Source: Candidatus Omnitrophota bacterium (GTDB taxonomy: Bacteria > Omnitrophota > Gorgyraeia > Zapsychrales > JANLHA01). From it: a stretch of DNA of 51,573 nucleotides. Shown piece by piece: positions 4,893 to 12,275 of this stretch. The notes beneath the pieces were generated by a model that saw only the letters and a list, made by a program, of their open reading frames with translations, did not search any database and was not told the origin of the DNA. The first letter of the stretch is position 1. Each line of letters opens with the position of its first letter. A program made the translations under genes and the position numbers. The DNA lies in the NCBI GenBank assembly GCA_023139575.1, contig JAGLNJ010000116.1:1-51573 (forward strand), given 5' to 3'.

Positions 4893-5735
4893 ATGAGAAA
4901 ATATCGTAATATAATCAAAATCTTATCCCTATCACTGCTGATCTTCTCGCTTACACTATTCATCAATTCAAATACAGACCAGAACTATCCAGCAGAAATG
5001 AGCGGACTTTGCCTTGATGTCCTGCCACAGGCCGGGCATTGCAGCAAAGTTAACACTCCCTTTGTTCATTACAAAGGATGGGAAACGGACATGCAGACCG
5101 GTAAAGACTCTTTATCCGGCATCGCCTTTTTTACCACAGAACTCGCCCCGGATATTAAAGGTTACGGCGGTCCCATAAAAATATTAGCAGGCCTAGACAC
5201 CAAAGGACGGCTGACAAAAATCAAGATCATCGAGCATGCTGAAACAGGTTCATTCATTAAAAAGATGGATAATTTCATCACTCAGTTTGAAGGCAAGAGG
5301 TTTAATGACCCTTTTCAATTGGGAAAAGATATCGACGGCATAACAAAGGCGACTGTATCCAGCGAGGCAATAACAAAGGCTTTGTATTTAAGCCTGCGGA
5401 AAGCCGTACCTTTGCTTGAAAAAAGACACGACAGATCAAAAAAAACCTTCACGCATCGAAAAATATGGATTGTTCCTATTATTATTTTGTTTTTCTTATT
5501 CATCTGGTCTTTTGATTTAAGTAAAAAAATAACTTTTATTTTCTTTATCGTCGGCATCCTTCTATTTGGGGTTTTGGTTACGTCTTTTAATGATTCTCCT
5601 CCCGTATCATTAAAAGAAACTACCCCTGCCCAGTCGTCTTCAAAATCATCAAAAGATGCCGCCGCGCTCAAGAAGATGCTGAACGAAAAGGGCATTAAGC
5701 CACACCCTGCAAAGTACTGGAAGGAAATACATTGA
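4893..5735 (+). CDS. FMN-binding domain membrane protein (NosR/RnfG-like)
   Basis: 280 residues: N-terminal signal/anchor (about 7-25), periplasmic FMN-binding domain (about 75-170), then two membrane helices (about 190-206 and 213-231) and a charged Ser/Lys-rich tail. The flavin motif is DGITKATVSS (148-157); T154 is where RnfG/NqrC/NosR-type proteins bind FMN covalently. TKAT replaces the classic SGAT, closer to the SRAT form of NosR-like proteins. Such proteins pass electrons across or at the membrane, often with NapH/NosR polyferredoxins like that at 46101-47603. The stop TGA overlaps the TTG start of amrS, implying coupled translation. Confidence 0.82.
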   Translation: MRKYRNIIKILSLSLLIFSLTLFINSNTDQNYPAEMSGLCLDVLPQAGHCSKVNTPFVHYKGWETDMQTGKDSLSGIAFFTTELAPDIKGYGGPIKILAGLDTKGRLTKIKIIEHAETGSFIKKMDNFITQFEGKRFNDPFQLGKDIDGITKATVSSEAITKALYLSLRKAVPLLEKRHDRSKKTFTHRKIWIVPIIILFFLFIWSFDLSKKITFIFFIVGILLFGVLVTSFNDSPPVSLKETTPAQSSSKSSKDAAALKKMLNEKGIKPHPAKYWKEIH

Positions 5736-6709
5736 AAACGATAGAATGCACATTATGCCCCCGCCATTGCCGCCTGAAAGAAGGTGAACGGGGCAATTGC
5801 CGGGTACGCGTTCATCTCGACGGCAAGTTGCAAACCCTGGTTTATGGCAATCCCTGCTCCGTCCATGTCGATCCGATCGAGAAGAAGCCGGTCTTCCATG
5901 TCCTGCCCGGTTCCGCCGCTTTTTCAGTAGCAACAGCGGGATGCAACCTGCATTGTAAATATTGTCAGAACTGGCAAATCTCCCAACGAGCCCCGGAGGA
6001 AACAACTAATATTGATCTCCCGCCACAGGCCCTTGTGGCCAATGCCTTAAAATACAATTGTCGCAGTATCGCTTACACTTATACCGATCCCGTTATTTTT
6101 TATGAATATGTCTTAGACTCAGCCAAAATCGCTCACAGTCAAAACTTACTCAACATTATGGTCTCCGCCGGATACATTGAACAGGATCCCCTACTTGAAC
6201 TCTGCCCTCACATCGACGCCGCTAACATCGATTTAAAAGGCATTACAGATGATTACTATAGAAGAATGAGCGACGCCACCTTAAAACCAGTATTGGATTG
6301 CATTCAAACCATGAAAAAACAAGGCGTGTGGGTAGAGCTGACAAACCTGATCGTTCCCACGTGGAATGATGGCGAAAAAGATATCCGCGCGCTGTGCCGC
6401 TGGATCGTTGATCACCTCGGGCCGGACGTGCCTTTACATTTTTCCCGCTTCTGGCCGCAGCATCAACTGAAGAACCTTCCTCCCACGCCAGTCGAAACCT
6501 TAAGCCTGGCCTGGGACATCGCTAAAACGGAGGGCCTGCATTATGCTTATGTGGGCAATATCCCGGGACACGACGGCAACAGCACCTTTTGCCCCCATGA
6601 CAACAAACTATTGATCAAGCGTATCGGCTATCGAATTTTGGAGAATCACATTGAAGATGGGAAATGCAAATATTGCTCCCACAAAGTGCCTGGCATCTGG
6701 AAAATATAA
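5732..6709 (+). CDS. amrS: AmmeMemoRadiSam system radical SAM enzyme
   Basis: Radical SAM protein of 325 residues, normal for the family. The cluster motif is C71NLHC75KYC78. The N-terminus has the extra Cys segment CTLCPRHC...GNC (C6, C9, C13, C23) typical of AmrS. These enzymes co-occur with AMMECR1 and Memo domain proteins; their substrate is unknown. AMMECR1 and Memo genes are not in the window. Start is TTG at 5732, overlapping the upstream TGA as TTGA, with AAGGAAA about 5 bases before it. The neighbours (FMN-binding protein, mini Tat-signal protein) suggest a redox-maturation role, which is inference. Confidence 0.92.
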   Translation: MKTIECTLCPRHCRLKEGERGNCRVRVHLDGKLQTLVYGNPCSVHVDPIEKKPVFHVLPGSAAFSVATAGCNLHCKYCQNWQISQRAPEETTNIDLPPQALVANALKYNCRSIAYTYTDPVIFYEYVLDSAKIAHSQNLLNIMVSAGYIEQDPLLELCPHIDAANIDLKGITDDYYRRMSDATLKPVLDCIQTMKKQGVWVELTNLIVPTWNDGEKDIRALCRWIVDHLGPDVPLHFSRFWPQHQLKNLPPTPVETLSLAWDIAKTEGLHYAYVGNIPGHDGNSTFCPHDNKLLIKRIGYRILENHIEDGKCKYCSHKVPGIWKI

Positions 6710-7437: not shown

Positions 7438-9084
7438 TTATTCTACCGTAAATATTTTTTCCACAAGCTGTTTCCCTTCATGGAGGATTTCGATCTTCCA
7501 TTTACCCGGAACGACTTCCCAGGGACACTCAAAAACCCATCCCGCATGTGACATTTTATTCAACAAAACGGTTCGTTCTCGCTCATCGATGGTTGTCGTT
7601 TCCCCCGTTTGAGGATTAGTGAGCGGAGGATGTGTAAAGCGTGTAACCACTTGCGCAAAGCCTTCCTCGGGGGCACCTTTTACCTTGAAAGCAAAACCAA
7701 ATTCTACATTTAATCGGGCGGGAACCATTTCTGTCTCTACGTCAAAAACCATTGTGTTCGACAATAAACACACCGGCGCATCTGATTGACTCTTTAGTTT
7801 CTTCATTCTTTCTTTTATGTCATGAACAAACCCATAACGAACGATCTGAACTGACTCAACAGTTGGATTCATAAAGTCGCCGGTATAATTCCCCTCCTCA
7901 TCAAAGTATTTGATGTTTACCATCTTCCCGTCTTTTACATGAATCTCTTTACTGATCTGTCCGTTTTCATAGTATTCCCGGGACTGAACACCATTTTTCA
8001 CTAATATATCTGACTCGCGATATAATTTTCCATTTTCATGATAAGTTTTTATTTTTTCTATCTCCCCTTCTATAAACATTGCTTCGCTATTAAGGACGCC
8101 GTCTTCATTGTAAACCTGAGTGACGCCATCAAGAAACCCCTCGACAAAGTTGCTCTTTACTCTATTTTTAACAGGGAATTCAACAACAAATTCTTTGATC
8201 CTGGAAAAAAGCCCCCCCTGCTCATCCAACAATTTCCCCTCCTTGAAAACAAATTCATGAGAGAGAGCGCCATTCTCACCATATAATCTCTGCACCCCAT
8301 CCTTATTGCCGTCCTTATAATATTCATCTACAACTAACATGCCGTTTTCATTGTATACTCTAAAAAAACCATGCCGCTCTCCATCTTTTCTTTTCTGCAT
8401 TTCTCGGGTTACTTTTCCGTTGGAATCATAATAGATTTTCGTCAGGACATTCATCCCCTTTAAAGAATGATATTCCGGCGGGCGGGGCACTTTTTGCAGC
8501 CATTTACAATAGCGCGAATCACACTGCTTTTTCTCCAGAAATTTTTTGGCAATTTCATATTGATTGTTATGTACATAAGACCATATCAAACCCGTCACAG
8601 GATCAACATCATTCGTCCACGGCTCCTCTTTCCCGGGCCTCATGGCAAAGGCCTTCTTGAAGTAGTCAATGGCCTGATCATAATCACTATATTTGTCGTG
8701 ATAAAGATCGCCTAGATTATTCAATGTAATGTATTTGTTTACCGGATTCTTCATCCCATGCTGCAGCGCAAGTTTATAATACTCTTCCGCCTCCTGATAT
8801 TCTCGCTTATCCATATATACCACAGCCAGCATCAAGTATACCTTTCCATCTATCCCCTTATGTGTGACCGCTTCATGCAGCAATTCTAGCGCTTCATCAG
8901 TTTTACCCTGTTCCCGCAGGACTTTTGATTGCGAGTACAAATCAAACCATTCTTTATTGGCATTCGATACAGACATATACTCAACAAATTTGTTATATCG
9001 TGGCCAGGACACTTTGACGAACACAATCGCAACTACGATAAGCGCAATGATTTCGAAAATGACCCCCAAGCGACTCTTTGTCAT
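7438..9084 (-). CDS. TPR + YwqK/MORN-repeat + DUF3859-like protein
   Basis: 548 residues with an unusual domain chain. An N-terminal membrane anchor (about 9-27) is followed by three or four TPRs (about 45-190; ELLHEAVTHKGIDGKVYLML is one), then about eight YwqK/MORN-type repeats (about 205-405) with the recurring pattern YYENGxxxxExxxKDGK. The C-terminus (about 430-548) matches DUF3859: MVPARLNVEFGF, THPPLTNPQTG, PGKWKIEILHEGKQL. YwqK repeats form beta-solenoid surfaces seen in some antitoxin or immunity-like proteins; the role here is unknown. The ATG overlaps the flavin reductase stop by one base (TAATG) behind GGAGGGA, a coupled start. Confidence 0.82.
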   Translation of the reverse strand: MTKSRLGVIFEIIALIVVAIVFVKVSWPRYNKFVEYMSVSNANKEWFDLYSQSKVLREQGKTDEALELLHEAVTHKGIDGKVYLMLAVVYMDKREYQEAEEYYKLALQHGMKNPVNKYITLNNLGDLYHDKYSDYDQAIDYFKKAFAMRPGKEEPWTNDVDPVTGLIWSYVHNNQYEIAKKFLEKKQCDSRYCKWLQKVPRPPEYHSLKGMNVLTKIYYDSNGKVTREMQKRKDGERHGFFRVYNENGMLVVDEYYKDGNKDGVQRLYGENGALSHEFVFKEGKLLDEQGGLFSRIKEFVVEFPVKNRVKSNFVEGFLDGVTQVYNEDGVLNSEAMFIEGEIEKIKTYHENGKLYRESDILVKNGVQSREYYENGQISKEIHVKDGKMVNIKYFDEEGNYTGDFMNPTVESVQIVRYGFVHDIKERMKKLKSQSDAPVCLLSNTMVFDVETEMVPARLNVEFGFAFKVKGAPEEGFAQVVTRFTHPPLTNPQTGETTTIDERERTVLLNKMSHAGWVFECPWEVVPGKWKIEILHEGKQLVEKIFTVE

Positions 9085-9668
9085 TATCCCTCCTTCTTTT
9101 CCATGATTCCCCTGCCGTCCTTAAAAGCCGTGCCCAGGCGTGAGCCGATGAGATGATATTCCCGCGCATCGGGACTGAAGACAAACGGCTGAACTTTTGC
9201 CACATCGGGGCGCCCCGAATCGTCCAGAACCTCATCATCTACTTTGACATCAACAATCTCCCCTACAAAATGCGTGTGCAAACCAAGTTCATGGTGATGC
9301 ACAACTTTACATTCCAAAATCATCGGAAATTCTCCCACATACGGAGCGTCTATATGTTCCCCCATTTCCGGGGTGAGACCCGTCGCCTTGAATTTATCCG
9401 TGTCACGCCCCGATGCGAGGCCAAAAAAGTCTGCTTCCTTATAGTATTTCACCGATGGAACACTCAGCGTGTAAACTTTTCCCCGCATGATGTTGTCATA
9501 AGTATACGTCGCCTGACGCAATGAAACAGTTACACACGGCGGTCGCGAACAGCATATACCGGCCTAGGATGCGGTCATCACATTGGGTTTACCTTCAGCA
9601 TCATAAGTCCCGACACACCATACCGGTGCGGGATAAATCAGCGTTCTTGCTCCTAATGATTTTTTCAT
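9084..9668 (-). pseudogene. Flavin reductase family protein interrupted by an in-frame amber codon
   Basis: Reading from ATG 9668, preceded by GGAAAG, the frame codes [20 protein letters not shown] and continues to NVMTAS, where TAG (9566-9564) replaces residue 35. Beyond it, still in frame, AGICCSRPPCVTVSLRQATY continues a complete FMN-binding split-barrel protein to 9084 (194 codons in all). Homologues normally have Trp (TASWAGI) here, so one TGG-to-TAG change explains it. TAG is an ordinary stop elsewhere in the window (9984, 33192, 41377), so recoding is unlikely. Such proteins bind FMN and reduce it or act as ferric/flavin reductases. A shorter product could only start internally at 9521 and would lack part of the flavin site. 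Confidence 0.82.
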
Positions 9669-9716: not shown

Positions 9717-9953
9717 TTATTCCCTTTGAATTTTTATTCTTTCCTTTTCATATTCTATTTCATCTCCCGCGACGATCTTACGGCGCTTACGCGTCTCTAC
9801 CTCACCATTTACCCGTACCAGTCCTTGAGAAATAACCATCTTGGCCTCACCGCCGCTTTCGACCATATTCTCAAATTTAAGAATCTTATAAAGCTCCGTA
9901 GGCTCCTGATTGATAAAAACAATACGAAATCCCTGGTGATTATCTTCGCTCAT
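9717..9953 (-). CDS. S4-domain RNA-binding protein (YbcJ-like)
   Basis: 78-residue cytoplasmic protein consisting almost entirely of one S4 domain: ELYKILKFENMVESGGEAKM, then VRVNGEVETRKRRKI and AGDEIEYE. This is the short YbcJ/YaaA-type S4 protein, which binds structured RNA, possibly rRNA. Start is the ATG at 9953. It stands between the broken flavin reductase and the large membrane methyltransferase-like gene, on the same strand. Confidence 0.85.
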   Translation of the reverse strand: MSEDNHQGFRIVFINQEPTELYKILKFENMVESGGEAKMVISQGLVRVNGEVETRKRRKIVAGDEIEYEKERIKIQRE

Positions 9954-9983: not shown

Positions 9984-12275
9984 CTAAAGCAGCAACAAAA
10001 CCGCGAAATTAATCGCCGCGCAGAAATATACTACCGCATTTATGCCGAGAAGAGGAACCAGAACGGCTCCCGTCACCAACGCGCCAATTGTCGCTCCGGA
10101 AACATCCATCGCATAAAGAAAACCGGCATTTTTGCTCGCAGACCCGCCCTTATTAATATCAGCTTCAAAGGCCTCCCCCCGGATACAAACAGCCAGGGGA
10201 TACTGCAGCCCGCCGATAAAACCGGCGATAATCGGTAAAGACGCAAAGACGCTGGCAAAGAAGGCGCTGGAAAATATCTCCGATCCGACATGTTGAAAAT
10301 AAACAAAAAACACCGGCAGTAATAACGGATACAAACAGATACTCCATTGCGTCCATTTATATATTTTAACTAATTTCTTTTTCTTTTCAATAGAGGGTAG
10401 AGGCAAAATACTCCTTATTAATTTCCGGGCAAACAGCGTCCCCAAGGCCAAGCCCGACATGAATGAGGCCATGATGAAACCGATTTTATAATACGCATAA
10501 CCATAGAGAGCTTGAAAGGACAGAATAATCACAATTTGAAATATGACTTCGGAAAATCCGGTTGTCATAATTGATAAGGTTATAGGCGAGAACGGCCTCC
10601 TTTTCCTTAAAAGCCATCCACCAACAAGCACCACCAAGGGCACAACCAGTAAATGTTTGAATCGCAACCAGCTGATTTTATGAAACACATCTTTAAATCC
10701 CTGATTGAAATGCGTCGACCATAAAACAATATCAAAGAGATAAGCGACAGGTTTCGCGTCGGTATTTATACGCCCCGGAGTTTGCAATACATCATTAATA
10801 TAATCCATTCTGTCGGGGCTCATGCGATAAGAAAAATAATATTCCCTGACATAACGTGTTTCCACCCCCCACCTTTCCAGGCTCCGGGTAAAAATATCGA
10901 TATTAATGTTCAACCCTTCCGGGTCTCTGGAGGCCAGAAAGATATGCGTATCCCCCGGTATAGACCGAACGTCAGGAAACACTTGCTTTAAAGTTGAATT
11001 GATCGAACGCAGAAATTCTTTTGTTTCTTTATTTAAATAATTCTCCGACGACGAAACGCTCAAAGCCATTATCCCTTGCGGCTTGAGGACACGAAAAGTT
11101 TCTTTGAAATATTCCAAAGTATAATAACGGTTGATCAAAGCCGTAATGGGATCACCCAAATTGACTATAACGACATCAAAAAGGGGAGCGTCTCTTCTTT
11201 TAATAAACTGACGGGCATCTGTGATGATGGTTTCAACACGTGGATCGTTTAAAGGGGCGACCACATCAGACGGCATATATTTTTGAGCCAAATCAATGAC
11301 TTTCCCGTCAAGTTCGATATAAGTCACTTTGATATCAGGATATTTAAGAATTTCCTTAATACTGCCATCTAGACCGCTGCCAATCAGCAAGACATGACGC
11401 GGGCGGGGATGTGCGTGTGCCAACATGGCATAATGCACGCCTTCTTCGCTGCTCAAATCATCCTTGGTAGCAAAAGACAATAAGCCGTTTTCATAAAGTT
11501 GATAGGTGTCTTTGAGTTTCGTGATCGTGATATTGCCGTATATCGATTCCGCTGAACTAACAACCTCCAGCCCCTCCCAACGTTTGTCCCGTGACCACTC
11601 ATCAGCCCATCGCAAAAATCCTGAGGCATAACATAAGAATACAATGATCAACTCTCCCAAAATAATGAAGGTGCGCGCTTTTCTTTTGACGAACAGCAGA
11701 ATTAAAACTAAAAAGACTAATGCGCATAGAAAAAACACAATAGAAAAAGCGCTAAAAAGTTTTATTAGAAATGCAGAAAAAATTAACCCGCCAATACCGC
11801 CGCCTATTGCCTCCCAAAGATAAACAGACCCTGCCCCCATGACAACAGCTTCCTGTTCTCGGCCTTCTTCCTTATATCGGCAGATAAGGGTAAACAAACC
11901 GCCAATAACCATTGTTAACGGCGCCAGCAGTAAAAAGGACAGCGCCGTCATGGGGATGATGCCCATAATCTCCCCTGTTTGAATATGCATAAAATTGTTC
12001 ACGAGACGAGAACTAATGACGGTGGCGGGCAGGAAAATAATAAAAAGAAAAAAAAGAATGGCGATAATATTCCTGGGGCACCGGACGTTTTGGATAAATG
12101 AGCTGGCGCAAAAATTTCCCATCGCTACCCAAAAGAGCCACGCCGCCAAAATCACCGCGTAAACCAACTCATTACCATAGAATACACTGACCAATTCCCT
12201 CATCAGGACAACTTGGCTCAGCACAGAAGAAAAACCTAAAAGAAAGGCCATGAGTTTTGATTTATTTTTCCGCAT
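9984..12275 (-). CDS. Membrane-fused spermidine synthase-like protein
   Basis: 763 residues: about seven N-terminal membrane helices (1-220), a soluble spermidine synthase/SAM-methyltransferase-like domain (about 285-480), and at least six C-terminal helices (about 530-763). The central domain has HVLLIGSGLDGSIKEIL, the acidic VTYIELDGKVI, DARQFI and DVVIVNLGDP followed by RYYTLEYFKETFRVLKPQG, the SpeE pattern. In SpeE the corresponding G[G]G[D/E]G loop has GGGDG; here it is GSGLDG. Such fused proteins are widespread but their substrate is not established. It stops with TAG at 9986-9984, which matters for interpreting the amber codon in the flavin reductase. Confidence 0.85.
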   Translation of the reverse strand: MRKNKSKLMAFLLGFSSVLSQVVLMRELVSVFYGNELVYAVILAAWLFWVAMGNFCASSFIQNVRCPRNIIAILFFLFIIFLPATVISSRLVNNFMHIQTGEIMGIIPMTALSFLLLAPLTMVIGGLFTLICRYKEEGREQEAVVMGAGSVYLWEAIGGGIGGLIFSAFLIKLFSAFSIVFFLCALVFLVLILLFVKRKARTFIILGELIIVFLCYASGFLRWADEWSRDKRWEGLEVVSSAESIYGNITITKLKDTYQLYENGLLSFATKDDLSSEEGVHYAMLAHAHPRPRHVLLIGSGLDGSIKEILKYPDIKVTYIELDGKVIDLAQKYMPSDVVAPLNDPRVETIITDARQFIKRRDAPLFDVVIVNLGDPITALINRYYTLEYFKETFRVLKPQGIMALSVSSSENYLNKETKEFLRSINSTLKQVFPDVRSIPGDTHIFLASRDPEGLNINIDIFTRSLERWGVETRYVREYYFSYRMSPDRMDYINDVLQTPGRINTDAKPVAYLFDIVLWSTHFNQGFKDVFHKISWLRFKHLLVVPLVVLVGGWLLRKRRPFSPITLSIMTTGFSEVIFQIVIILSFQALYGYAYYKIGFIMASFMSGLALGTLFARKLIRSILPLPSIEKKKKLVKIYKWTQWSICLYPLLLPVFFVYFQHVGSEIFSSAFFASVFASLPIIAGFIGGLQYPLAVCIRGEAFEADINKGGSASKNAGFLYAMDVSGATIGALVTGAVLVPLLGINAVVYFCAAINFAVLLLL

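Follow-up and report, generated by a model that had tools for sequence, protein, structure and literature searches.

A single amber codon at an invariant tryptophan position interrupts a flavoredoxin-like gene of a Candidatus Omnitrophota genome, probably through a recent nonsense mutation

The window analyzed here (the whole 51,573-nucleotide stretch of contig JAGLNJ010000116.1) carries on its minus strand a flavin reductase frame of the flavoredoxin type, which contains a single internal stop codon, TAG at codon 35, and ends with TAA (Table 1). A Shine-Dalgarno-like AAGAAAGGA is located upstream of the ATG at 9668 and makes a plausible ribosome-binding site. At its 3' end the frame overlaps the following gene in the sequence TAATG, the A at position 9084 being shared between the terminal TAA and the ATG of the next gene. 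An earlier sequence-only reading of this DNA had described one amber codon in an otherwise complete 194-codon frame, an intact start with its ribosome-binding site, and TAATG coupling to the downstream gene; all three descriptions held when the locus was translated and its ends were inspected.

Table 1. Positions of the interrupted gene, its parts and its two flanking genes in the window.
Feature	Position	Strand	Basis
Flavoredoxin-type flavin reductase gene (PF01613), 194 codons with one in-frame TAG	9084..9668	-	Translation, Pfam, homologues, 2d5m
In-frame amber codon (TAG), codon 35; Trp in 36/36 homologues	9564..9566	-	Translation and homologue comparison
34-codon piece expected from normal translation	9567..9668	-	Translation
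159 codons past the stop plus terminal TAA; open, with Flavin_Reduct profile match	9084..9563	-	Composition, conservation, Pfam
Downstream gene, TPR/MORN/DUF3859 protein, TAATG overlap	7438..9084	-	Open reading frames and Pfam
Upstream gene, 78-aa S4-domain RNA-binding protein (S4_2, YbcJ/YaaA-like)	9717..9953	-	

The Pfam domain Flavin_Reduct (PF01613) spans the stop codon (residues 12-148, E = 2.8e-33), and the frame scored 115.6 bits against a gathering score of 27, as expected of a family member. The piece beyond the stop matched the same profile by itself (E = 6.2e-26). The nearest solved structure is that of flavoredoxin (PDB 2d5m), a PF01613 flavin reductase-like split barrel, with which residues 1-188 aligned end to end (E = 1.4e-73). 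The two sequences share the same xAGICC context near position 35, where 2d5m has Trp whereas the window copy has TAG. We concluded that the 9084-9668 segment is no chance frame but a single gene hit by a point lesion. It was filed as a disrupted member of the flavoredoxin/PF01613 family, the TAG at codon 35 breaking the reading frame that an FMN-binding PF01613 protein needs. With 160 of the 194 codons at or after a stop that replaces a Trp shared by all homologues compared, the gene has the form of an early-stop pseudogene.

To place the lesion among relatives, 36 close homologues were compared. Their sources were genomes of the organism's own family and order, those of the wider phylum, and a public genome collection; besides members of the phylum they include MAGs of Desulfobacterota, Chloroflexota and Bacteroidota. 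Position 35 is Trp in every one of them and a stop in none (0/36), in agreement with the earlier claim that homologues have Trp there. The same comparison answered the question of whether relatives share a conserved TAG at codon 35: none of the 36 does. Trp-35 is one of 27 columns that are invariant across all other sequences. The window copy keeps 25 of the 27, its two departures being the stop itself and Ala65Val. A TAG reported in one homologue (G018) sits where the match ends at the C terminus and has the appearance of an ordinary terminator, and a stop flagged in another (G203, L064) falls outside aligned residues 1-186. A literature search on Trp-35 of flavoredoxin found nothing.

The frame after the stop is in good condition. 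There were no further lesions in the 159 codons following the TAG, and the composition of this stretch is gene-like (0.245 per codon, inside the range of the genes of the window). Strongly conserved sites have been kept at 29 of 31 positions; intact homologues show 0-4 changes on the same count. Under neutral drift ∼3.2% of random substitutions in the post-stop stretch would create another stop. On this basis, and with indels ignored, an undamaged post-stop frame is expected up to ∼4.5% divergence at even odds, or up to 19% as the 95% bound, and the lack of a second stop suggests that the divergence since the lesion lies below these values. The end branch leading to the window copy amounts to 0.44 changes per column, which is long, though not exceptional among the homologues. 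Since an undamaged frame is expected at low divergence only, the stop is probably younger than most of this branch, or it is not real.

We examined whether TAG is read as a sense codon in this organism. Release factor RF1 is present in the genome (482 bits, above the curated cut-off) and TAG ends 44 of 302 long open segments in ∼407 kb, made up of the window and 20 further stretches. TAG is therefore a functional, normal terminator in this genome, and a reassigned TAG was rejected on the same two grounds. The tRNA-Trp has the normal CCA anticodon. The search for an amber suppressor tRNA that had been proposed alongside the sequence-only reading found no CUA anticodon (CTA in the gene) among the 29 tRNA genes detected with Rfam, a tRNA set that is incomplete, as is the MAG (89.6% complete). 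In a profile search PylS gave a weak match of 23 bits vs. a cut-off of 178, and a below-cut-off match was also obtained in most controls that lack PylS. Neither component of pyrrolysine decoding, PylS and a CUA tRNA, was thus found in the MAG. A recoding hairpin was likewise rejected: predicted RNA structure around the stop was weaker than the shuffle mean (z = +1.23), with no strong structure. A mechanical screen for interrupted genes in the ∼407 kb, in which a family-library search covered part of the candidates, added no further convincing case of interruption by TAG among the candidates that were inspected; these proved to be pairs of distinct neighboring genes sharing a frame, or frames that do not look coding. 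Within the sampled DNA the flavoredoxin gene stands alone as a convincing stop-interrupted case, and neither of the marks of amber suppression or a reassigned code, several TAG-interrupted genes or the loss of RF1, was seen.

The interpretation that we favor is a recent nonsense mutation in the assembled strain, present as a pseudogene or as a strain polymorphism (probability of roughly 0.68). One nonsense change in the codon for Trp-35 would recently have inactivated the gene for this flavoredoxin-like FMN-binding protein; translation would end after 34 residues, no FMN-binding split barrel would be formed, and the downstream TPR gene would presumably still be expressed via its own initiation. 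We infer that the change is genuine and no consensus error, that it arose recently, and that function is lost through it. However, the contig is a metagenome consensus, in which a base error or the base of a minor strain would look identical. The main rival, second to the nonsense mutation, is an error of the metagenome assembly, arising in the consensus, in sequencing or through the mixing of strains, with the gene intact in the living organism; we regard it as unlikely but as a serious candidate. Only one base is affected in a gene that is otherwise intact and conserved, and this is the pattern that an isolated error leaves. The genome, moreover, is a MAG of 204 contigs. Against an error of this kind, the candidates that were inspected in ∼407 kb included no other gene convincingly interrupted by a stop, which indicates that gene-breaking base errors are not common in the assembly.

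Amber read-through to a full-length protein, whether by a suppressor tRNA, by pyrrolysine or by a programmed mechanism, could account for a single stop followed by a conserved, coding-like frame without further lesions, and in these respects the window gene resembles genes of pyrrolysine or amber-suppression decoding systems. It differs from them in that its genome has RF1, no PylS above the cut-off and no detected CUA tRNA, and in that no homologue carries TAG at this position; the RNA folding and the screen for further interrupted genes give read-through no help either, and we consider it very improbable. The narrower proposal that an undetected suppressor tRNA, or read-through dependent on context, reads the amber codon efficiently and yields full-length flavoredoxin conditionally must be regarded as hardly credible. 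A shortened functional protein could also arise by re-initiation downstream of the stop, at TTG 9521 or ATG 9488; the 145-aa open frame from TTG 9521 retains most of the domain. Both internal starts were examined and no Shine-Dalgarno sequence precedes either, and the product would be without the conserved N-terminal segment with its invariant positions 2, 4, 15, 22, 35, 37, and 43, which makes re-initiation a most unlikely source of activity. The three options offered by the sequence-only reading formed a sound list, which these results support: a recent nonsense mutation and a sequencing error both stay live, while read-through is left without support.

The recent nonsense mutation resembles known bacterial pseudogenes formed by one such change, namely a point stop in a non-universal gene that is otherwise intact, and the window gene shows nothing distinctive in comparison with them. 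The event has the look of either a commonplace, recent gene loss or a wrong base in the assembly. The damage concerns one accessory redox gene of one MAG and is of little consequence by itself; it illustrates that recoding should be proposed for an in-frame stop in a MAG consensus only once reads have been checked or strains compared.

Among 53 other genomes from the family and order of the MAG, 5 carry a close homologue of the gene and 1 more a distant one. The gene is probably dispensable, because its distribution is so patchy. No second PF01613 copy was found in the assembly, the flavoredoxin gene being its sole member, and a redundant copy serving as backup was thus rejected. In the tree, the window copy stands apart from most copies of its own phylum and joins those of two MAGs, one of Desulfobacteraceae and one deltaproteobacterial, with Chloroflexota copies adjoining this group (support of 96/89 and 99/93). 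The neighbors of the window copy are not common to the homologous loci that were fetched. The grouping suggests horizontal transfer of the flavoredoxin gene, and tree and neighbor data would together fit a horizontally acquired accessory gene, the loss of which may be unremarkable.

Several nearby genes have features of their own. The downstream gene encodes an unusual mix in one protein, with TPR repeats, MORN variant repeats and a C-terminal DUF3859 domain. On the plus strand, a gene for an FMN-binding-domain protein is directly followed by one for a radical SAM protein (4893-6709). The minus-strand gene at 9984-12275 encodes a protein of 763 aa, of which residues 286-436, near the center, form a spermine/spermidine synthase domain; the protein is far longer than an ordinary spermidine synthase.
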